Below, in pieces: positions 7,095-21,603 of a stretch of 22,905 bases of DNA. How positions within the stretch are numbered: the first letter of the stretch is position 1; each line of letters opens with the position of its first letter. This DNA comes from a virus. Location of the stretch: the IMG/VR virus record IMGVR_UViG_3300043446_000622, positions 1 through 22,905 of that record. One strand, 5' to 3'. The notes under the pieces are model-generated. The model saw nothing but the letters and a program-made list of their open reading frames with translations, searched no databases and was not told the origin of the DNA. The position numbers and the translations under genes are program-made.

Positions 7095-7586
7095 ATGTTT
7101 AAGAGCCTACCCCTCACAGTCCGTACGATTGAAGCGACAGAAGCTGTACTGGAGCGCATATACGACGCTGCGTATTTAGGATTAAAAGAAGATTCGTTGG
7201 CGTTAGCGGCAGGGTTGTTACCTGTAGAGTACCGGCTACTTAAACAGCATGACAAACTTGCCGAAATTGCCGAACTCAAGGGACGCGCAGATAGTGAGCG
7301 CGAACACAGCCAGCACATGTTGAACGCAGCGCGGCAAGGCGACGCTAAGGCGGCGTTAGAGATACTGAAACACACGCATGGTTGGGTCGCCAAGCAGGCG
7401 GTGAGTATTGAGGTGGATCAGCGCATCAGCGTGATCGACGCACTCAGAGCGGCGGAGACACGCGTTGATGAGGGTAAAGTGATCGACGTGACGCCACGAA
7501 GTGAAAAGCTAACACATGCAGAAACCAATATACAGTCCGGAAGACGAGCAACTGCTGATGACGCGGTTGTGGTCGCCCGCGATTAA
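7095..7586 (+). CDS. Probable terminase small subunit (163 aa)
   Basis: DNA-recognition subunit expected directly before TerL. The N-terminal part is helical with a helix-turn-helix-like stretch (EDSLALAAGLLPVEYRLL, about 35-52). It is followed by a charged helix and by DAKAALEILKHTHGWVAKQ (about 82-100), a pattern typical of phage small terminases, then the SIEVDQRISVIDALR strand-helix segment. Assignment rests on position, size and this pattern rather than on an enzymatic motif. There is no recognisable ribosome-binding site before ATG 7095, and no alternative start in frame upstream. The 3' end overlaps the TerL gene by 71 bases, which is long even for a phage. Confidence 0.7.
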   Translation: MFKSLPLTVRTIEATEAVLERIYDAAYLGLKEDSLALAAGLLPVEYRLLKQHDKLAEIAELKGRADSEREHSQHMLNAARQGDAKAALEILKHTHGWVAKQAVSIEVDQRISVIDALRAAETRVDEGKVIDVTPRSEKLTHAETNIQSGRRATADDAVVVARD

Positions 7587-9042
7587 AGACGACCCGGAAG
7601 CGTTTGTGTTGTTTGCCTTCCCGTGGGGGCAAGAGAACACGCCACTGGCGAAGTACGGCGGACCGCGCATGTGGCAGCGGCAGGTGCTGCGCGACATCAA
7701 GGCGCACATAGAAGATAACAAGGGTAAAGTGGACATGGACACACTGCGAGAGGCAGTCAGTTCAGGTCGAGGGATTGGTAAGTCGGCGCTGGTGAGTTGG
7801 TTAATTATGTGGATGCTGTCCACACGGATAGGGTCAAGCGTGATCGTGAGCGCTAACAGTGAGGCGCAGCTACGGTCGGTGACCTGGGGCGAGCTGACTA
7901 AGTGGTCCACGATGATCATCAACGCGCACTGGTGGGAGATCAGCGCAACCAAGCTGCAACCGGCTAAGTGGCTATGCGACATCGTGGAGCGTGACCTACG
8001 GAAGGGTACGCGCTACTGGGCGGCAGAGGGCAAGCTGTGGTCGGAAGAAAACCCTGACAGCTACGCGGGGGTACACAACCACGATGGGATGATGCTGATC
8101 TTTGATGAGGCGTCGGGTATTCCTGACGGCATCTGGTCGGTGGGGGCGGGGTTCTTTACGGAGAACATATTAGATAGGTACTGGTTTGCGTTCAGTAACC
8201 CGCGACGCAACACGGGGTACTTCTTTGAGTGCTTTCACGCCAAGCGCGACTTCTGGCGCACAAGGCAGGTGGACGCAAGGACGGTCGAGGACACTGACAA
8301 GCAGGTGTATCGTCAGATCATTGAGGAGTACGGCGAGGACTCAAGCCAGGCGCGGGTCGAGGTGTACGGTGAGTTTCCATCAAGTGGAGACGATCAGTTC
8401 ATCTCGCCAAGCCATGTGGCTGACGCTGCCGCCAGACCTCGGTACAAGGACGAGACTGCGCCAATCGTGATCGGGGTCGATCCGGCACGAGGTGGGGCGG
8501 ACTCGACAGTAATTGCGGTGCGGCAGGGGCGTGACCTAGTGGCAATCCATCGGTATCATGGCGAGGATACGATGACAATCGTGGGTCGGGTAATTGACGC
8601 AATCGAGCAGTACAAGCCAACGCTCGTGGTGCTAGACGAAGGTGGGCTAGGGTACGGCATATTAGATAGGCTACATGAGCAGCGCTACAAGGTGGTAAGG
8701 GGTGTAAACTTTGGTTGGAAGGCGAAGAACCCTGTGATGTACGGTAATAAGCGAGCCGAGCTGTGGGGCACGATGAAAGAGTGGCTTAAAACTGCTTCCA
8801 TTCCGAACGATAGGGCGTTAAAGTCTGATCTGGTTGGGCCTACCATAAAACCCAATTCGTCGGGTACAATTTTCTTGGAAGGTAAAAAGGAAATGAAAGC
8901 CCGAGGATTAGCATCACCCGACGCTGCTGACGCGCTGGCGGTGACGTTTGCATTTCCGGTCGCGCACAGGCAGTATGTCGAGAAACAAACTAATCGTGCG
9001 TACAACGCCAACGGCGTAGCAACATCTTGGATGGGTGCTTGA
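7516..9042 (+). CDS. terL: Terminase large subunit
   Basis: Packaging motor ATPase and headful/end-cutting nuclease, 508 aa. The ATPase domain carries Walker A GRGIGKS (84-90, Lys89) and Walker B MMLIFDE with D197 and catalytic E198. The RNase H-like nuclease domain carries VIGVDPARGG with D322, a second acidic site LVVLDEGG (D374/E375), and a third in SPDAADALA (D469/D472), so the metal-binding triad is complete. The start at 7516 lies inside the small-subunit gene and is coupled to it, with only a weak ribosome-binding site. Works with the portal to fill the capsid. The N-terminal 80 residues precede the P-loop, as usual for the family. Confidence 0.95.
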   Translation: MQKPIYSPEDEQLLMTRLWSPAIKDDPEAFVLFAFPWGQENTPLAKYGGPRMWQRQVLRDIKAHIEDNKGKVDMDTLREAVSSGRGIGKSALVSWLIMWMLSTRIGSSVIVSANSEAQLRSVTWGELTKWSTMIINAHWWEISATKLQPAKWLCDIVERDLRKGTRYWAAEGKLWSEENPDSYAGVHNHDGMMLIFDEASGIPDGIWSVGAGFFTENILDRYWFAFSNPRRNTGYFFECFHAKRDFWRTRQVDARTVEDTDKQVYRQIIEEYGEDSSQARVEVYGEFPSSGDDQFISPSHVADAAARPRYKDETAPIVIGVDPARGGADSTVIAVRQGRDLVAIHRYHGEDTMTIVGRVIDAIEQYKPTLVVLDEGGLGYGILDRLHEQRYKVVRGVNFGWKAKNPVMYGNKRAELWGTMKEWLKTASIPNDRALKSDLVGPTIKPNSSGTIFLEGKKEMKARGLASPDAADALAVTFAFPVAHRQYVEKQTNRAYNANGVATSWMGA

Positions 9043-9061: not shown

Positions 9062-9226
9062 ATGCCACTTGTTAAATCAACCAGCAAAGAAGCCTTTCGT
9101 AAAAACATTAAGGCTGAAGTTAACGCAGGCAAACCTGTCAAGCAGGCTGTTGCAATTGCTTACAATACTCAACGTGCTGCGGCGGCTAAAAGGCCGAGCA
9201 CTAAACCTATGGCAAAGAAAAAGTAA
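9062..9226 (+). CDS. Short basic conserved phage protein (54 aa)
   Basis: Very basic small protein beginning MPLVKSTSKEAFRKNIKAEV, with GKPVKQAVAIAYNTQR in the middle and a Lys-rich tail. This layout is frequently seen as a mini-gene in packaging modules of aquatic phages, but its role is unknown. DNA or RNA contact is plausible from its charge only. The ATG at 9062 has AAGGA five bases upstream. A longer in-frame version from 9035 has no ribosome-binding site. Its TAA overlaps the portal ATG by one base. Confidence 0.75.
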   Translation: MPLVKSTSKEAFRKNIKAEVNAGKPVKQAVAIAYNTQRAAAAKRPSTKPMAKKK

Positions 9227-11472
9227 TGGCAACGCTTAAGCAAGACCCTACAGGTATTGAAGGCGCGGGCAAGGTATCGGCTCGCGGCGGTCCTGACCAG
9301 AAGGATCATCGAGATACGTTGCAACTGATGCGCGACCGGCTACGGCAAGCGATTGGTGCGTACTCAGAGAGCCGCGAAGATGAGCTTGACGACCTGCGCT
9401 TTATGGCCGGTTCGCCAGACAACCAGTGGCAGTGGCCGCAAGATGTATTGGCAACGCGTGGGTCGGTGCAAGGGCAGACGGTCAACGCAAGACCTTGCTT
9501 GACTATTAATAAGCTACCACAGCATGTAAGACAAGTAACTAACGAGCAGCGCCAGAACCGGCCAAGCGGCAAGGTCATACCTGTTAACGATCAAGCCGAC
9601 GTTGAAGTTGCCGAGGTGCTAGATGGCATCGTGCGGCATATTGAGTACATGTCAGACGCTGATGTAGCGTATGACACCGCGTGTGAGAACCAAGTAACCT
9701 ACGGTGAAGGCTATATACGCATTTTAACCGAGTATTGCTACGAGGATAGTTTTGATCAAGACATCAAAATTGCTCGCGTACGCAATAGCTTTAGCGTTTA
9801 CATGGACCCATTGATCCAAGACCCATGCGGTGCAGACGCTGAATGGTGCTTTATTACCGAGGACATGCTTAAGGAAGATTACCAGCGCATGTACCCTAAC
9901 GCTGCGCCGCTGTCATCGATCATGGCGCAGGGTATTGGCGACCAAGACATCAGCCAGTGGATTACTGAAGATACGATTCGTATTGCTGAATACTTCTACA
10001 TCGCGCACAAAACGGAAACGCTGTACCTGTACCCAGGCAACAAGTCGGTGTTTAAAGGCTCCGTTGAAGACGCTACGCTACGTTCAATGGGGGTAAAACC
10101 CATACGCGAACGTCAGGTAGATCGTAAAAAAATCATGTGGATGAAAACCAATGGTTTTGAGGTGCTTGAGGAGCGTGAATGGGCGGGCAACTGGATACCT
10201 GTTGTACGCGTGGTAGGTAACGAGTTCCAAGTTGACGGGCGTATTTTTATATCAGGCATAGTGCGTAACGCCAAGGATGCCCAACGGATGTATAACTACT
10301 GGACAAGCCAGGAAGCCGAAATGCTTGCGCTTGCCCCTAAAGCCCCATTTATTGGCTACGGCGGTCAATTTGAGGGTTATGAGTACCAGTGGAAGACGGC
10401 TAACACGCAAAACTGGCCGTATTTAGAGGTTAATCCAGACGTTACAGACGGCGCAGGATCTATTTTACCGCTACCACAGCGTGCCGCACCACCTTTACCT
10501 CAAACGGGCCTCATACAGGCCAAAATGGGGGCTTCTGAGGATATTAAAGCTACCACAGGCCAGTACGATGCAAGTCTGGGCCAGGTGTCAAACGAACGTT
10601 CTGGACGTGCTATTTTAGCTAGGCAAAAGGAATCTGACAACGGAACATATCACTATGTAGATAATTTAGCGCGTGCTGTGCGTTACGTGACCCGTCAACT
10701 GGTGGATTTGATACCAAAAATCTACGACACGCAGCGTATTGCTAGGATTGTTGGTATTGATGGCGAGACCAACATGGTCAAAATCGATCCAACTCAACAA
10801 GAGCCAGTCAAAAAGATTGTGGATCAGACGGGCGTGGTGATCGATAAGATTTACAACCCTTCCGTTGGCCGTTACGACGTGGTGGTGACCACTGGGCCAA
10901 GCTACATGACTAAGCGCCAAGAGTCAATGGACGCCATGTCGCAGATCTTGCAGGGCAACCCCAATTTATGGGCTGTTGCAGGCGATTTGTTTGTTAAAAA
11001 CATGGATTGGCCTGGTGCTCAGGAGATGGCGGCACGTCTTCGCAAGACCATTGACCCGCAATTGCTAGCTGATCAAGATAACGATCCAGCGCTGCAAGCA
11101 GCTCAAAAGCAAATTGAAGCAATGAGCATGGAAATGCAGCAAATGCACGATATGCTAATGAACGTTAACCAGTCGATTGAGGCTAGAGACGTACAAGTAC
11201 GCGAATTTGAAGCTAAAATTAAGGCGTTTGATGCTGAAACTAAGCGTATTTCAGCCACAATGCCTGGTATGACGATGGAGCAAATTCAAGATATTGTGAT
11301 GGGCACGATTGCTGCGGCGCACGATGCAGGGGATTTGATACCACCTCAGCAAATGCAAGGCCCAATTATGGAAGAACCTGAGGGTATGGGTCGCGAAGCA
11401 GAGATTATGGCCCGCCAGGAAGAAGCGCAACAAGCCAGACCTATGCCTAACGTAGTACCTCAGGAGGGTTGA
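9226..11472 (+). CDS. P22-like portal protein
   Basis: Portal of the P22 family (748 aa against about 725 in P22). As a dodecamer it forms the DNA channel at one capsid vertex and binds the terminase during packaging. Recognisable features are the N-terminal NDQADVEVAEVLDGIVRHIE segment with AYDTACENQVTYGEGYIRI (about 145-175), the central IKATTGQYDASLGQ stretch and SNERSGRAILARQ that follow in P22 portals. A long Met/Gln-rich coiled-coil C-terminus (about 620-690) corresponds to the barrel region. The start overlaps the preceding stop (TAATG). The Pro/Gln/Met-rich end is followed by an AGGAGGG ribosome-binding site for the next gene. Confidence 0.92.
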   Translation: MATLKQDPTGIEGAGKVSARGGPDQKDHRDTLQLMRDRLRQAIGAYSESREDELDDLRFMAGSPDNQWQWPQDVLATRGSVQGQTVNARPCLTINKLPQHVRQVTNEQRQNRPSGKVIPVNDQADVEVAEVLDGIVRHIEYMSDADVAYDTACENQVTYGEGYIRILTEYCYEDSFDQDIKIARVRNSFSVYMDPLIQDPCGADAEWCFITEDMLKEDYQRMYPNAAPLSSIMAQGIGDQDISQWITEDTIRIAEYFYIAHKTETLYLYPGNKSVFKGSVEDATLRSMGVKPIRERQVDRKKIMWMKTNGFEVLEEREWAGNWIPVVRVVGNEFQVDGRIFISGIVRNAKDAQRMYNYWTSQEAEMLALAPKAPFIGYGGQFEGYEYQWKTANTQNWPYLEVNPDVTDGAGSILPLPQRAAPPLPQTGLIQAKMGASEDIKATTGQYDASLGQVSNERSGRAILARQKESDNGTYHYVDNLARAVRYVTRQLVDLIPKIYDTQRIARIVGIDGETNMVKIDPTQQEPVKKIVDQTGVVIDKIYNPSVGRYDVVVTTGPSYMTKRQESMDAMSQILQGNPNLWAVAGDLFVKNMDWPGAQEMAARLRKTIDPQLLADQDNDPALQAAQKQIEAMSMEMQQMHDMLMNVNQSIEARDVQVREFEAKIKAFDAETKRISATMPGMTMEQIQDIVMGTIAAAHDAGDLIPPQQMQGPIMEEPEGMGREAEIMARQEEAQQARPMPNVVPQEG

Positions 11473-11474
11473 GC

Positions 11475-11837
11475 ATGAAATGTGCTGATTTTGTAGGTAT
11501 GTTGTTTTTGGCACGAGATGTTGCTCATTCAGTGCATTTAAACACCCGCAGCTACAGCAAACATAAAGCATTAGGTAAGTTTTATGGCGAAATTGTCGAT
11601 TTAGCGGATAAATTTGCTGAGGCCTATCAAGGCCGACATGGTTTGATAGGACCTATTTCATTGATGAGCGCGAGCAAAACCTCTAATATCTTAGCTTTCA
11701 TGCAAGATCAGGTTGATGAAATCGAAAAAATCAGGTATGAAGTGTGTGATAAAGCAGAGACTCCGCTGCAAAACATTATTGATGAAATTGTAGGTTTGTA
11801 TTTAAGTACAATCTACAAACTTAAATTTCTTGCTTAA
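11475..11837 (+). CDS. Small helical protein with Dps-like ferroxidase-site spacing (120 aa)
   Basis: Helical protein beginning MKCADFVGMLFLARDVAHSV. Residues H18, H30, D45 and E49 are spaced 12-15-4, exactly as the ferroxidase ligands of E. coli Dps (H51, H63, D78, E82). The local sequence IVDLADKFAE parallels Dps LIDHLDTMAE, with D42 also matching D75. One Dps residue, D67, is Gly here. At 120 aa it is shorter than most Dps proteins, so it may be a stripped four-helix bundle. The ATG at 11475 has AGGAGGG six bases upstream; the TTG at 11469 is too close to that site. It follows the portal directly, so it is likely made with virion proteins. Iron handling or a purely structural use are both possible. 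Confidence 0.72.
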   Translation: MKCADFVGMLFLARDVAHSVHLNTRSYSKHKALGKFYGEIVDLADKFAEAYQGRHGLIGPISLMSASKTSNILAFMQDQVDEIEKIRYEVCDKAETPLQNIIDEIVGLYLSTIYKLKFLA

Positions 11838-13512: not shown

Positions 13513-15273
13513 ATGCCATACGGTAACGGCGGGATTATCGGCCCAGCAAACATACCGACTACATCTTCGGCTAAAGGCGTCTGGTCCTTGATGGAACAGC
13601 TTATCGCCAAACAACAAGGCATCTGGCCTTTAGCAGGCGGCTACACCGTCATCCAAACCTTTACCGCTACGTCTACTTGGACTTGTCCTACTGGTGTTAC
13701 AAGCGTTGAGTATTTGGTTGTTGCTGGTGGTGGTGGTGGTGGCAAAACTATATCTTCAGTTTATGCAGGGTCGGCAGGTGGCGGCGCAGGTGGGTTTAGA
13801 ACTGGAACAGGTCTAAGCGTTACTGCTGGAACAGACTATACCGTTACTGTTGGTGCTGGTGCAACCGCTCAAACAACTGCTGCAACACAAGGCAATAACG
13901 GCAATGATTCAATATTTAGCACTATCACATCAACAGCAGGTGGTGGTGGAGGGGCCACAACTACAACAGCAGGAAGGGCTAACGGTAAAAATGGAGGTTC
14001 CGGCGGTGGAGCATCATGGGACGCCTCTGGGCCGGGTGCTTCTGGTACAGCAGGTTCAGGGAACACACCATCTGTAAGCCCGTCTCAAGGTAGTAACGGC
14101 GGTATTGTTACTGCTAACTCTAATGGCGGCGGCGGCGGCGGTGCGGGGGCCGTTGGAAGTAATGGAACAGGCTCTTCTGGATCAGGAGCTGGTGGCACTG
14201 GTACATCTTCTTCTATTTCAGGTTCATCTGTAACTTACGCAGGCGGCGGTGGTGGTGGTGCTTATACTGGGAATGGTGGGTCTGGTGGTTCTGGCGGTGG
14301 CGGCGCAGGTGGCAACCAAGGCGGTAGTGCCGGAGCAGATGGAACTGCTAACACTGGTGGTGGCGGTGGTGGTGGGGGTTCAAATGGAGGCCCAGGTAAT
14401 GGCGGCGCAGGCGGCTCCGGCATTGTTATCCTGAAGTACACCGTACCAAGCCAAACTGTATTTACGTTCAAAGGCACTACACAATGGACAGTGCCAACGG
14501 GTGTAACGAGTATTGATTACTTGTGTGTTGCAAGCGGTGGTGGTGGCGGTGGTTGTGGCCCAGGTGGATTTGGTGCTGGAGGTGGCGGCGCAGGTGGTTT
14601 TAGGATTGGGTCATCACAAACAGTGAGTGTTGGAGCAACGTTAACTATTACTGTTGGCGCATCATCTCCTGGAGGAGCCGCAGGAAAAAATCGTGGGACA
14701 GATGGTAATCTGTCATCAATAGTTGGTGGGTCTTCCCCATCTATTTTTGCATCCCCTGGGATTGTTTCTGCTGGCGGTGGCGGTGGTGGTGGAGGCGATG
14801 GCGCTGGAGGACAGACGGGTAACAATGGAGGTTCTGGCGGCGGTAGCTCACAAGGATTGACAGCGGGAACAGGGAATACACCGTCAACTAGCCCATCTCA
14901 AGGAAATAATGGGGGTGTAGGAACCGGAACTTCACCGGCTTTTGCTGGTGGTGGCGGCGGTGGCGCTACTGGTACTGGAGGAACTGGATCTAGTACGGAT
15001 GGAGGCAATGGCGGCGCAGGCACAGCAAACAGCATTACTGGATCATCAGTAACTTACGCTGGCGGAGGCGGTGGTGGCGTAGATTCGCGGACATCTGGCC
15101 CATCTGGTTCTGGAGGTTCTGGGGGCGGAGGAGCAGGTGGGAAAGGCGCAGCGGGATCAGCGGGGACTGTTAACACAGGCGGTGGCGGTGGCGGTGGCGG
15201 TGGCGGCCCAGGATTGTCTGGTGCTGGCGGAACAAGCGGCTCCGGTATCGTAATCATCAAAATCAATCAATAA
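13513..15273 (+). CDS. Glycine-rich tail fibre/adhesin with internal duplication
   Basis: 586-aa fibre-like protein. Residues 1-40 (GGIIGPANIP, GVWSLMEQL, IWPL) are an N-terminal module typical of phage fibre proteins. Two homologous glycine-rich domains follow, at about 45-312 and 315-586. Each opens with a beta strand set (TSTWTCPTGVTSVEYLVVAG; TTQWTVPTGVTSIDYLCVAS) and ends SGIVI(L/I)K. The runs of GGGGGG and GGxGG repeats resemble the polyglycine-type adhesin tips known from some phages (for example the S16 gp38 adhesin), so a host-binding role is likely. AGGAG lies five bases before the ATG. The next gene starts one base after the stop. Long G-runs make this locus liable to length and base errors. 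Confidence 0.8.
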   Translation: MPYGNGGIIGPANIPTTSSAKGVWSLMEQLIAKQQGIWPLAGGYTVIQTFTATSTWTCPTGVTSVEYLVVAGGGGGGKTISSVYAGSAGGGAGGFRTGTGLSVTAGTDYTVTVGAGATAQTTAATQGNNGNDSIFSTITSTAGGGGGATTTTAGRANGKNGGSGGGASWDASGPGASGTAGSGNTPSVSPSQGSNGGIVTANSNGGGGGGAGAVGSNGTGSSGSGAGGTGTSSSISGSSVTYAGGGGGGAYTGNGGSGGSGGGGAGGNQGGSAGADGTANTGGGGGGGGSNGGPGNGGAGGSGIVILKYTVPSQTVFTFKGTTQWTVPTGVTSIDYLCVASGGGGGGCGPGGFGAGGGGAGGFRIGSSQTVSVGATLTITVGASSPGGAAGKNRGTDGNLSSIVGGSSPSIFASPGIVSAGGGGGGGGDGAGGQTGNNGGSGGGSSQGLTAGTGNTPSTSPSQGNNGGVGTGTSPAFAGGGGGGATGTGGTGSSTDGGNGGAGTANSITGSSVTYAGGGGGGVDSRTSGPSGSGGSGGGGAGGKGAAGSAGTVNTGGGGGGGGGGPGLSGAGGTSGSGIVIIKINQ

Positions 15274-15274
15274 C

Positions 15275-15529
15275 ATGACTACAAAAACATATCGCTTTCT
15301 AGGCATTGACACAGCCATGCACCTACTACGTCCAGGTGCGAAGTGGGAAATCAGTAACAACGTCTTTACAAGGTGGGATGATCCACGGCCATGCCCAAGC
15401 ATTGAAGAAGTGTATTGGGTCATTGACAAGATCAGAGAGTTTGAGGACAGCATCCCTACGATCTACACCGACGAGCAACTCAAAGAGATGGGCATAGCCC
15501 GTGAGGAATTTGAACGTGCAGTTGCATAA
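15275..15529 (+). CDS. Small conserved protein next to fibre genes (84 aa)
   Basis: Begins MTTKTYRFLGIDTAMHLLRP, with CPSIEEVYWVIDKIREFEDS and IPTIYTDEQLKEMG in the second half. This layout (short Gly-Ile-Asp strand, helix, acidic C-terminal helix) is seen beside tail-fibre genes in aquatic phages and may belong to fibre-assembly chaperones or accessory proteins. That is a contextual guess. No ribosome-binding site of its own; the stop of the preceding gene is one base upstream, indicating coupling. The 3' end overlaps the oxygenase gene by 14 bases. Confidence 0.7.
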   Translation: MTTKTYRFLGIDTAMHLLRPGAKWEISNNVFTRWDDPRPCPSIEEVYWVIDKIREFEDSIPTIYTDEQLKEMGIAREEFERAVA

Positions 15530-16118
15530 CTTATTTCCCATCCCTGTAGGCTTTGCTGAGTTAGGTAGACCCTTGTCAGATGAGGAATTGTTCTTCATCC
15601 GTGAGCTTGAAACACGTCCTAATATGGGCAATACCACAAGCACGAATAACTTTGTCCTGCGTGATCCAGCTCTAACGTCCCTGCGCTCATTCATCGAGGA
15701 TGCTGTCTCGGAATACTTCAAATCCACAGTCAACCCTAAGCACAACGTAAGCCTGAGAGTCACACAAAGCTGGTGCAACTACTCAGAGCAAGGTCAGTAC
15801 CACCACAAACACGCTCATCCTAATTCGTATATCTCAGGTGTGTTTTATGTGCAGACCAACCCTGATGATCGGATTTACTTCTACAAGGATGGCTGGCAGC
15901 AGATCAAATTCCCACCAGACCAGTGGAACCCGTACAACTCTGAATCGTGGTGGTTTGAGGCTTACGCAGGTCGCTTGATTCTCTTTCCTTCGTCGCTCAC
16001 GCATATGGTTCCTGAAGTAAAGGGCGAGGACACAAGAATCTCACTATCGTTTAATACCTTCCCTGTCGGTGTCGTTGGGGAAGAGATGGATTTAACCGGA
16101 CTTAGGCTGGAGGCGTAA
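15516..16118 (+). CDS. Putative 2OG-Fe(II) oxygenase (200 aa)
   Basis: Resembles the small phage-encoded 2-oxoglutarate/Fe(II) dioxygenases of the PF13759 type. It has SWCNYSEQGQYHHKHAHP (W86, N88, H96-H101), then SGVFYV at 107-112, then ILFPSSLTHMV with distal iron ligand H163, and RISLSFN with R174 as the likely 2OG-binding arginine. The usual HxD iron pair appears here as HxH (H99/H101). The start is a GTG at 15516 with GAGGAA seven bases upstream; an in-frame GTG at 15501 would place that site inside the coding region. It lies in a fibre-gene cluster, so it may hydroxylate a virion or host protein. The substrate is unknown. Confidence 0.8.
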   Translation: MQLHNLFPIPVGFAELGRPLSDEELFFIRELETRPNMGNTTSTNNFVLRDPALTSLRSFIEDAVSEYFKSTVNPKHNVSLRVTQSWCNYSEQGQYHHKHAHPNSYISGVFYVQTNPDDRIYFYKDGWQQIKFPPDQWNPYNSESWWFEAYAGRLILFPSSLTHMVPEVKGEDTRISLSFNTFPVGVVGEEMDLTGLRLEA

Positions 16119-18674: not shown

Positions 18675-19475
18675 ATGCCTACGATAGCAACTTTAGGTGC
18701 AGCTTCCGCTAGGGCTTTTGGTGCGTTAAATAACATTCAAATTGCTCCCGGACAACAAGCCTATACAACACCAGGTACTTACACTTGGGTCGCCCCTGCC
18801 GGAGTTACATCTATATCAGTTGTTCTTGTTGGTGGGGGCGGTGGCGGTGGAGGTGCAGGTGATGCTGGTAGCTCTACTGCTTTTGGTATTACGGTACTAG
18901 GGGGAAAAGGCGGCGCTCCGGGTACAACGCAAAGCACTTATGGAAGTGGCGCTGATGCTGGATATATAGGTGGGGCGGCTGGGACTGATAGTTCTGGACG
19001 CGGTAATTCTGGAGGTGGGGGAGCTGCTGGGTATGCAGGTAATGGGGGTAACGGCGGGAATTATGACGCAGGTTTAGGGTCTGCTGGATCAGGTGGGGGC
19101 GGTGGAGGTGGAAATGCGAATGGCGGTGCTGGCGGAGGCGTTGGTATTCTTGGGCAAGGAACTAACGGTACTGCTGGCGGTGGTGGAGGATCTGGAGGCT
19201 CTAACGGAAATGTCCGCGTAGGGGGATTTCCTGCTGTCGCAGGCGGAAATTATGGTGGTGGGGCTTCCGGTTCTGATGGTAGTTCATTTGCTGGCAGCGG
19301 CGGATGCCTGGGGTATAAAAATAATGTACCTGTTATACCTAATTCTAGTTACACAATTGTAGTTGGTGCGGGTAGAGGGGTAGGTGGTTCTGGGGCAGTA
19401 AGGATTATTTGGGCCGGTACTCGTCCAGGGGATGTAGCTAGAGCGTTTCCTTCTACAAATACCGGCGATTTGTAA
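18675..19475 (+). CDS. Second glycine-rich adhesin-like protein (266 aa)
   Basis: Begins MPTIATLGAASARAFGALNN, then a strand set GTYTWVAPAGVTSISVVLVG leading to Gly runs, the same module as in the 586-aa protein at 13513 but in single copy. The C-terminal part (SSYTIVVGAGRGVGG, AVRIIWAGTRPGDVARAF) resembles the closing strand of the Gly-rich domain, extended by a short basic/proline tail. AGGAAA lies about five bases before the ATG. Probably a fibre-tip/adhesin subunit. A second adhesin with shared modules could allow receptor variation through recombination. Confidence 0.75.
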   Translation: MPTIATLGAASARAFGALNNIQIAPGQQAYTTPGTYTWVAPAGVTSISVVLVGGGGGGGGAGDAGSSTAFGITVLGGKGGAPGTTQSTYGSGADAGYIGGAAGTDSSGRGNSGGGGAAGYAGNGGNGGNYDAGLGSAGSGGGGGGGNANGGAGGGVGILGQGTNGTAGGGGGSGGSNGNVRVGGFPAVAGGNYGGGASGSDGSSFAGSGGCLGYKNNVPVIPNSSYTIVVGAGRGVGGSGAVRIIWAGTRPGDVARAFPSTNTGDL

Positions 19476-19582: not shown

Positions 19583-20374
19583 ATGAGCGACGAAAGTCAA
19601 ACCTTAGCGGAAGTAGACTCCGCGCCAGCATCCGAGATGACGGCCATCACGGAGATTGCACAAAATGCGCCGGAAGTCGCTGAACAAGCGCAAGATCAAA
19701 CTGAGGAAAAGCGTTTTACTCAGGCTGAACTTGATGCAATGATCAGCAAACGCCTTGCAAGAGAGCAACGCAAGTGGGAACGAGAGCAAAAGCTGAGGGT
19801 GTCAGCACCCGATATGCCGTCTGGTGAGTTACCCGCGCAAGATAGTTTTGCGTCAACTGAGGAATACGCGGAAGCGTTAGCCGAAAGAAAAGCCGCAGAA
19901 TTACTTGCACGACGTGAAGCAGAAAGACAGCGTGCAGAAGTTCTTGAGGTCTATCACGAGCGCGAAGAAGAAGCACGTACAAAGTACGAAGATTTTGAAC
20001 AAGTCGCGTACAACCCACGTCTTCCAATCACAACAGTGATGGCCGAAACGATTCAAGCGTCTGATGTTGGTCCCGAGGTGGCGTATTACCTTGGTTCTAA
20101 CCCAAAAGAGGCTGATCGTATTGCCAAGTTGTCGCCTTTTTTGCAGGCAAAAGAGATTGGGAAGATTGAAGCTAAATTAAGTGAAAATCCTCCTGTTAAA
20201 AAGTCGTCGAGCGCCCCAGCGCCGATTCAGCCTGTTACCCCTAGGGGTGGCAACGCAAGAGTTTTAGACACAACTGATCCGCGTTCAATTAAAGAAATGT
20301 CAACGTCAGAGTGGATTGAAGCCGAGCGTCAAAGGCAGATTAAGAAATGGGAAGCTCAAAACCGAGTCCGCTAA
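19583..20374 (+). CDS. Capsid scaffolding protein
   Basis: Located directly before the coat gene, 263 aa, highly charged, with a helical Glu/Arg/Ala-rich middle (TEEYAEALAERKAAELLARR, about 93-112). The N-terminal acidic stretch, the RFTQAELDAMISKRLARE helix and the basic C-terminus (WIEAERQRQIKKWEAQNR) fit P22-like scaffolds, which bind the coat protein through a basic helix-turn-helix end and leave the procapsid before DNA packaging. Sequence-level recognition is moderate; synteny is strong. Expressed from the promoter at 19506-19534. The ribosome-binding site is weak. Confidence 0.82.
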   Translation: MSDESQTLAEVDSAPASEMTAITEIAQNAPEVAEQAQDQTEEKRFTQAELDAMISKRLAREQRKWEREQKLRVSAPDMPSGELPAQDSFASTEEYAEALAERKAAELLARREAERQRAEVLEVYHEREEEARTKYEDFEQVAYNPRLPITTVMAETIQASDVGPEVAYYLGSNPKEADRIAKLSPFLQAKEIGKIEAKLSENPPVKKSSSAPAPIQPVTPRGGNARVLDTTDPRSIKEMSTSEWIEAERQRQIKKWEAQNRVR

Positions 20375-20394: not shown

Positions 20395-21603
20395 ATGGCA
20401 AATAGCCTACTTACCATTGACATGATTACTCGCAAGGCGCTTGAAATCCTTGAGAATAATCTTGTCTTGACCCGCAACGTAAACCGCCAATACGACGACA
20501 GTTTTGCTGTCGAGGGCGCTAAGATTGGTTCAACCCTTCGTATTCGCCTTCCGGACCGTGCGCTTGTCACTGACGGTGCTGCACTGCAAGTTCAAAGCGA
20601 TAACGAGCAGTACACCACGTTGACGGTTGCTACGCAAAAGCACATTGGCGTTAACTTCACGTCTGCTGAATTGACGTTGCAGTTGGACGACTTTGCAGAG
20701 CGCGTGCTTAAACCTCGTATCAGCCAGCTTGCTGCTAGCATCGACGCTGACGTTGCCAACTCATACCAGTACATTGGTAACACCGTTGGTACGCCAGGAA
20801 CAACACCTGCCACGTCGTTAGTTCTGTTGCAAGCACAGCAGAAACTTAACGAAAATGCTGCGGTTATGTCTCCCCGTTACGCTACAGTCAACCCCGCTGC
20901 TAACGCTGGTTTGGTTGAAGGTATGAAAGGTCTTTTTAATCCCACCGATACGATCAGCCGCCAGTTTAAAAACGGCATGATGGGTATGGGTGTGCTTGGG
21001 TTTGATGAGATCAACATGTCTCAGTCAATCAAGCAGTTCACGACTGGCTCGCGTACGGCTACTGGCGGTACAACGTCTGCTGCTGTAACAAGCGAAGGCG
21101 CAACCACTATTGCCATTACCGGCGCTGGCGCTAGCGCAACCGTTAAAGCTGGCGATGTGTTTACCGTGGCTGACTGCTATGCTGTTAACCCACAAACCCG
21201 TGAGTCTACTGGTTCGCTCTTCCAGTTTGTTGCGACTGTTGACGTCACGCTGAATGGCTCTGGCGCAGGTAACATCACTGTTGCTCCGATCTATTCTTCC
21301 GGTAATGCTCTAGCTACTGTTGCCAGCCTTCCTGCTGCTAGCAAAGCTGTTGTATTTGTCGGTGCAGCGTCTAGCCAGTACCCACAAAACCTCGTCTACC
21401 ACAAAGACGCTATCACTTTTGCCACTGCCGACTTGATGATGCCGCAAGGTGTTGACATGGCGTCGCGTCAGGTTCATAACGGTATTTCGATGCGTATTGT
21501 TCGTCAGTACGACATCAACAATGACCGTATGCCCTGCCGTATTGACGTACTGTACGGCTACAGCGTGATCCGTCCGCAAATGGGCGTTCGTCTCTGGGGT
21601 TAA
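20395..21603 (+). CDS. P22-like major capsid (coat) protein
   Basis: Coat protein of the P22 gp5 family (402 aa; P22 about 430), building the T=7-type shell with an HK97-like core. Supporting features: N-terminal helix and NRQYDDSFAVEGAKIGSTLR; DFAERVLKPRISQLAASIDA (about 100-120) resembling the E-loop/spine; and an inserted immunoglobulin-like I-domain (about 220-330) with AGDVFTVADCYAVNPQTR. The C-terminal part contains MRIVRQYDINNDRMPCRIDV and ends IRPQMGVRLWG. AAGGA lies seven bases before the ATG, following the scaffold closely. Probably the most abundant product of this operon. Followed by a stable UUCG-type hairpin. Confidence 0.92.
   Translation: MANSLLTIDMITRKALEILENNLVLTRNVNRQYDDSFAVEGAKIGSTLRIRLPDRALVTDGAALQVQSDNEQYTTLTVATQKHIGVNFTSAELTLQLDDFAERVLKPRISQLAASIDADVANSYQYIGNTVGTPGTTPATSLVLLQAQQKLNENAAVMSPRYATVNPAANAGLVEGMKGLFNPTDTISRQFKNGMMGMGVLGFDEINMSQSIKQFTTGSRTATGGTTSAAVTSEGATTIAITGAGASATVKAGDVFTVADCYAVNPQTRESTGSLFQFVATVDVTLNGSGAGNITVAPIYSSGNALATVASLPAASKAVVFVGAASSQYPQNLVYHKDAITFATADLMMPQGVDMASRQVHNGISMRIVRQYDINNDRMPCRIDVLYGYSVIRPQMGVRLWG

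Follow-up and report, generated by a model that had tools for sequence, protein, structure and literature searches.

A Dps-lineage mini-ferritin-like protein encoded directly behind the portal gene of a phage with P22-like head genes

Does the short gene that directly follows the portal gene of a P22-like phage encode an iron-oxidising protein of the mini-ferritin type, and might such a protein travel in the virion? The question is raised by an open reading frame at positions 11475-11837 (+ strand) of a complete virus record of 22,905 bases, the whole of which we refer to as the window. A preliminary description of this DNA had singled out residues H18, H30, D45 and E49 of the product, equating them with the metal ligands His51, His63, Asp78 and Glu82 of E. 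coli Dps, and had suggested either a mini-ferritin-like component in or on the virion or a fold re-used for purely structural ends. The spacings on which this was based (12, 15 and 4 residues) are exact in the translation, in which the stretch IVDLADKFAE occupies residues 40-49, and when the whole window is translated in all six frames (45,806 codons) the pattern H-x11-H-x14-D-x3-E turns up once.

The reading frame is genuine: its product is 120 amino acids long, and selection on the gene is strongly purifying, with a median dN/dS of approximately 0.05 over the nine near relatives for which dS was measurable. The portal protein gene immediately upstream (9226-11472, + strand; phrog_156, E = 1.2e-127) ends 2 bases before it, confirming the adjacency first described, and a ribosome-binding site, AGGAGG (11462-11467, + strand), lies within the 3' end of the portal gene, ahead of the mini-ferritin ATG. 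The other P22-like head genes encode the terminase (7516-9042), the scaffold (19583-20374) and the coat protein (20395-21603). A variable gene cluster is found between portal and scaffold, and between these two genes there is another iron-linked gene of the late region, a 2OG-Fe(II) oxygenase (15501-16118, + strand; phrog_81, E = 8.9e-44). Two further reading frames (13513-15273 and 18675-19475, both on the + strand) are highly glycine-rich, with GGGGGG-like repeats, and probably encode tail-fibre or adhesin-like proteins.

The window protein belongs to a known phage family, itself a divergent branch within the Dps lineage. Against Pfam family PF19174 (DUF5856) it scores an E-value of 3.5e-23 and 82.9 bits, the curated cut-off being 34.6, and against phrog_858 an E-value of 4.8e-28 over residues 2-119. 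By tblastn, relatives are present in at least 1454 of 50,697 phage records; family members occur in T4-type phages (as gene rI.-1 / mobD.6), Ackermannviridae and jumbo phages, and gp015 of RaK2 is also a relative. Most records of the family are labelled either "hypothetical protein" or, like phrog_858 itself, "starvation-inducible transcriptional regulator", and some DUF5856 relatives have already been annotated as ferritin-like or as starvation-inducible DNA-binding protein; the name DUF5856 returned no paper in PubMed Central. With T4-type rI.-1 / mobD.6, CBB_169 and Sajous1 gp217, the window protein shares an HMM family, a similar length and the same four invariant residues (considered below), and both members that were modelled have the same predicted fold. 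Compared with the T4-type and jumbo-phage members, the clade that includes the window protein (hereafter, the window clade) differs in its position behind the portal gene, in the absence of an N-terminal extension and, for the most part, in lacking an acidic residue at position 34.

Two observations concern other parts of the family. A large clade (L239-L318), many of whose members sit on long contigs (up to approximately 350 kb), carries the motif QNQLRxxHWxTxSYAxHKALG, in which position 18 is Arg or Lys and the ligand His is followed by Trp. In addition, CBB_169 (L087:2911-3351) also weakly matches phrog_3636, labelled "DNA binding protein" (E = 9e-4), and perhaps forms a bridge to a second Dps-like family of phages.

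The link between this family and Dps is visible with profiles alone. As a single query against the PDB, the window protein attained a best E-value of only 0.69, whereas profiles built from 46 relatives (A2) and from 25 diverse relatives (A3), both run against 177,635 distinct PDB sequences, each placed Dps and NAP proteins at the top, with best E-values of 2e-5 and 3.6e-5, respectively. Comparison by hhalign with a Dps alignment that we built from seven full-length proteins and one fragment yielded a global E-value of 2.1e-5. Against the Pfam Ferritin model (PF00210), the window protein had no match, and five of the 46 relatives matched weakly (best E = 0.01).

Structure prediction of the monomer, one of the checks proposed in the preliminary description, points the same way. 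The AF2 model (mean pLDDT 94, pTM 0.89) is a four-helix bundle with helices at residues 3-22, 27-55, 72-90 and 96-118, and its closest known fold is that of Dps: the top 26 entries returned by VIA-align are all Dps (Z = 14.4, 2.3 A across 119 residues), with model residues 1-120 superposing on residues 31-166 of E. coli Dps. Foldseek likewise ranks Dps first, at weak E-values (0.09), and a model of a distant family member (L307; pLDDT 91.8) again has Dps as its top match (Z = 12.0). Because unrelated helical bundles can reach Z-scores near 12-14, the fold match is insufficient alone; in combination with the sequence profiles it is sufficient. Judged by its profile matches, then, the window protein is a homologue of Dps, and the mini-ferritin-like character first proposed for it is borne out by both PDB profile searches, by hhalign and by the predicted fold. 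Searches of BFVD with the model brought up two other groups of proteins: three annotated as "prohead protease" (A0A6J7WIS1, A0A6J7XDU5 and A0A6J7WPK9; 432, 333 and 763 amino acids) match the Dps-like model along its full length and possibly combine a head-assembly protease with a Dps-like domain by fusion, and two small giant-virus proteins (A0A481ZC29 and A0A7D3V608, from Pithovirus LCPAC404 and Fadolivirus) have a similar predicted fold.

Which residues of the window protein correspond to the Dps ligands is a separate matter, and here the original assignment held for three positions and failed for one. In both the HMMER profile alignments and hhalign, H30 (codon 11562-11564, + strand), D45 (11607-11609, +) and E49 (11619-11621, +) pair with His63, Asp78 and Glu82 of E. 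coli Dps, as first described, and the residue that pairs with His51 is H21 (11535-11537, +). H18 (11526-11528, +) aligns with Lys48 and is rejected as the His51 ligand: the profile alignments put it three residues away from that position and, among 218 distinct relatives, it is His in 159, Arg in 52 and Lys in seven. Across the same 218 relatives, in which those from viral contigs had been collected by short conserved patterns (some including H30, D45 or E49, most without H21), the only fully invariant columns are H21, H30, D45 and E49 (218/218 each). The same invariance is seen in the relatives from phage records, which came from tblastn (A1); these four residues, together with Y114, are present in every one of the 11 sequences of A1 and the 46 of A2. 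Conservation among homologues, whose absence the preliminary description had named as grounds for rejecting its proposal, thus sustains H30, D45 and E49, as it does H21, and turns against H18, replaced by Arg or Lys in 59 of the 218. By these alignments, the spacing of exactly 12 between H18 and H30 is a coincidence, with H18 lying about one helical turn ahead of the ligand.

The comparison with canonical Dps proteins (E. coli Dps, B. subtilis MrgA, L. innocua Dps and H. pylori NAP) accordingly shows likeness in the four-helix fold predicted for the window protein and in the ferroxidase-center ligands (two His, one Asp and one Glu), which are in register; moreover, in half of DUF5856 (111 of the 218 relatives) the first His is directly followed by Trp, as in the His-Trp pair of Dps. 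In other respects the family departs from the canonical type. The distance from H21 to H30 is nine residues, rather than 12, in the window protein and in 210 of the 218 relatives because the A-B loop has three residues fewer than in Dps; the eight relatives with a spacing of 12, such as those of Phi1 and L109, have a loop longer by three residues. The equivalent of Asp67 is G34 in the window protein (codon 11574-11576, + strand) and Gly, Asn, Arg or Gln in most of the window clade, the acidic residue (Asp or Glu) of the T4-type and jumbo members having been lost. At 120 amino acids, the protein is also shorter than canonical Dps (approximately 140-170), and its model lacks the BC helix. Helix A begins at residue 3, leaving no Lys-rich N-terminal tail, and the pI is 6.4; with neither tail nor BC helix, tail-mediated DNA binding of the E. 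coli type is therefore not expected. On account of its spacing and of the missing fifth ligand and tail, the window protein is best kept apart from canonical Dps; in function it probably resembles one.

Where the protein acts can be approached through its relatives and its gene position. Published mass spectrometry has detected three members of the family in purified virions, all of them distant relatives from outside the window clade: CBB_169, with 3 unique peptides and 26.3% coverage (PMC5259590); Sajous1 gp217, with 10 spectra, which Phyre2 calls a ferritin at 96.7% confidence (PMC10892097) and which we assign to phrog_858 / DUF5856; and gp108/100 of ValerieMcCarty03/04, with 26 and 27 spectra, which exceeds the threshold that the authors set for virion proteins (PMC13119998), the ValerieMcCarty03 sequence bearing the motif. 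Within the window clade, the portal gene is immediately upstream in 80 of 82 loci (L001-L082), and in one of the two exceptions the sequence begins just 80 bases ahead of the gene, too short to hold a portal. Taken together, the detections and the gene position make association of the window protein with the virion likely, in keeping with the location "in or on the virion" suggested at the outset.

For the Vi01-like phages, a cluster that includes Sajous1 gp217 has been given a proposed role in entry, the "ferrojan horse" (PMC10892097); the same study found normal infection of Salmonella hosts deficient in TonB and FeoB. That proposal shares with ours a protein of the same family present in virions, and differs in assigning it a tail role in entry, whereas the window gene lies by the portal gene of a P22-like phage.

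A different reading of the gene's position is that the protein is a Dps-like metal protein acting in the infected cell, in the control of iron or peroxide or in binding phage or host DNA, and enters virions only as a minor passenger. T4-type phages, Ackermannviridae and jumbo phages carry the gene near rI, thymidine kinase, primase or other non-structural genes and not near head genes, and the virion counts cited above are modest. Ordinary Dps homologues of Lactobacillus and Bacteroides phages, which resemble the DUF5856 proteins in being Dps-like enzymes encoded in phage genomes, have been described as serving the infected host (PMC6669764, PMC8008677); these are described as of the bacterial type, and the virion detections given above concern DUF5856 relatives. 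Against an action confined to the cell are the fixed place of the window-clade gene behind the portal, where late head genes are made, and the ValerieMcCarty proteins, which exceed what their authors required of true virion proteins. We consider such a role unlikely, if the most serious of the alternatives to a virion-associated mini-ferritin.

In the virion-associated mini-ferritin that we favor, the four invariant residues would form a metal site between subunits. H30 and D45 are both on helix 27-55, separated by 15 residues or approximately 22 A, too far for the two to hold the same metal in a single chain. Dps brings its two ligand pairs together across the two-fold interface (PMC9140674, PMC6675082), and the fact that neither pair varies speaks for such an interface site in the window protein as well: two subunits would pair over a two-fold axis, with H21 and H30 of one joining D45 and E49 of the other in a site equivalent to the Dps ferroxidase center. 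In E. coli Dps, the high-affinity site is composed of His51, His63 and Glu82, and the low-affinity site of Lys48, Asp67 and Asp78 (PMC9140674). Because the equivalents of His51, His63 and Glu82 are all present and that of Asp67 is Gly, the putative site would have a complete high-affinity half and a reduced low-affinity half.

This second, reduced position leaves some room for a protein whose metal is not iron (Zn or Mn), or for a ferritin-like oxidase that acts on a small molecule; the titles of some Dps crystal entries name Zn or Mn, and ferritin-like proteins include oxidases. The completeness of the residues that make up the high-affinity iron site of Dps, and the fact that the nearest relatives by both profile and fold are Dps proteins, speak for iron, and we regard this alternative as improbable.

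A role in lysis timing, as proposed for the T4 relative rI.-1, is more doubtful still. The gene adjoins rI in T4-type phages, and over-expression of T4 rI.-1 slightly postpones the collapse of lysis inhibition (Golec et al., 2010, in the account given of it in the review PMC6832632), but the effect is slight and comes from over-expression, RaK2, which has the gene, possesses neither rI nor the T holin (PMC3622015), and in the window clade the gene stands by the portal and its invariant residues are metal ligands; the probability that remains is very small. Equally remote is the other half of the original suggestion, that the ferritin fold has been re-used for head or portal structure without metal chemistry: portal adjacency and the virion detections would suit it, but a structural part would not need two His, an Asp and a Glu, and the four metal-ligand positions are exactly those that never vary across the 218 relatives.

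The reading that we prefer is that the window protein is a compact mini-ferritin from a branch of the Dps lineage, made late, together with the portal protein, which probably enters or accompanies the virion and oxidises metal at a two-fold interface; by oxidising and sequestering Fe(II) it would shield DNA that is packaged or has just been injected from Fenton chemistry. We hold this to be reasonably probable as a whole, and infer rather than observe the dimer or cage, the identity and oxidation of the metal, packaging in the window phage and the protective purpose. Several points weigh against it: neither the window protein nor most of its clade has the Asp67 ligand, a BC helix is absent from the model, whose Foldseek E-values to Dps are weak, a gene next to the portal need not encode a virion protein, and the virion detections come from distant relatives and could partly reflect carry-over. 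The more general proposal, that DUF5856 is a phage-specific mini-Dps packaged in the virions of podoviruses and myoviruses alike, with a dimer-interface metal site rebuilt around a short A-B loop and without Asp67, is one that we advance tentatively, at somewhat less than even odds.

The family itself was already known, its kinship to Dps or ferritin had been guessed in annotations, and a "ferritin in the virion" has been proposed in print. What is new is the quantitative link between DUF5856 and Dps, the correct register of the ligands, the exclusive invariance of the four ligand positions, the short-loop variant, and the bringing together of three separate virion detections. Cumulatively, the invariance of the four ligands and the detection of family members in virions of three lineages turn a vague label into a testable question, namely whether phage genomes are packaged together with an iron-oxidising protein, which bears on the survival of virion DNA under oxidative damage and on the presence of iron in phage particles. 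If the packaged mini-Dps proves true, very many tailed phages would bring their own iron-oxidising protein beside their DNA.
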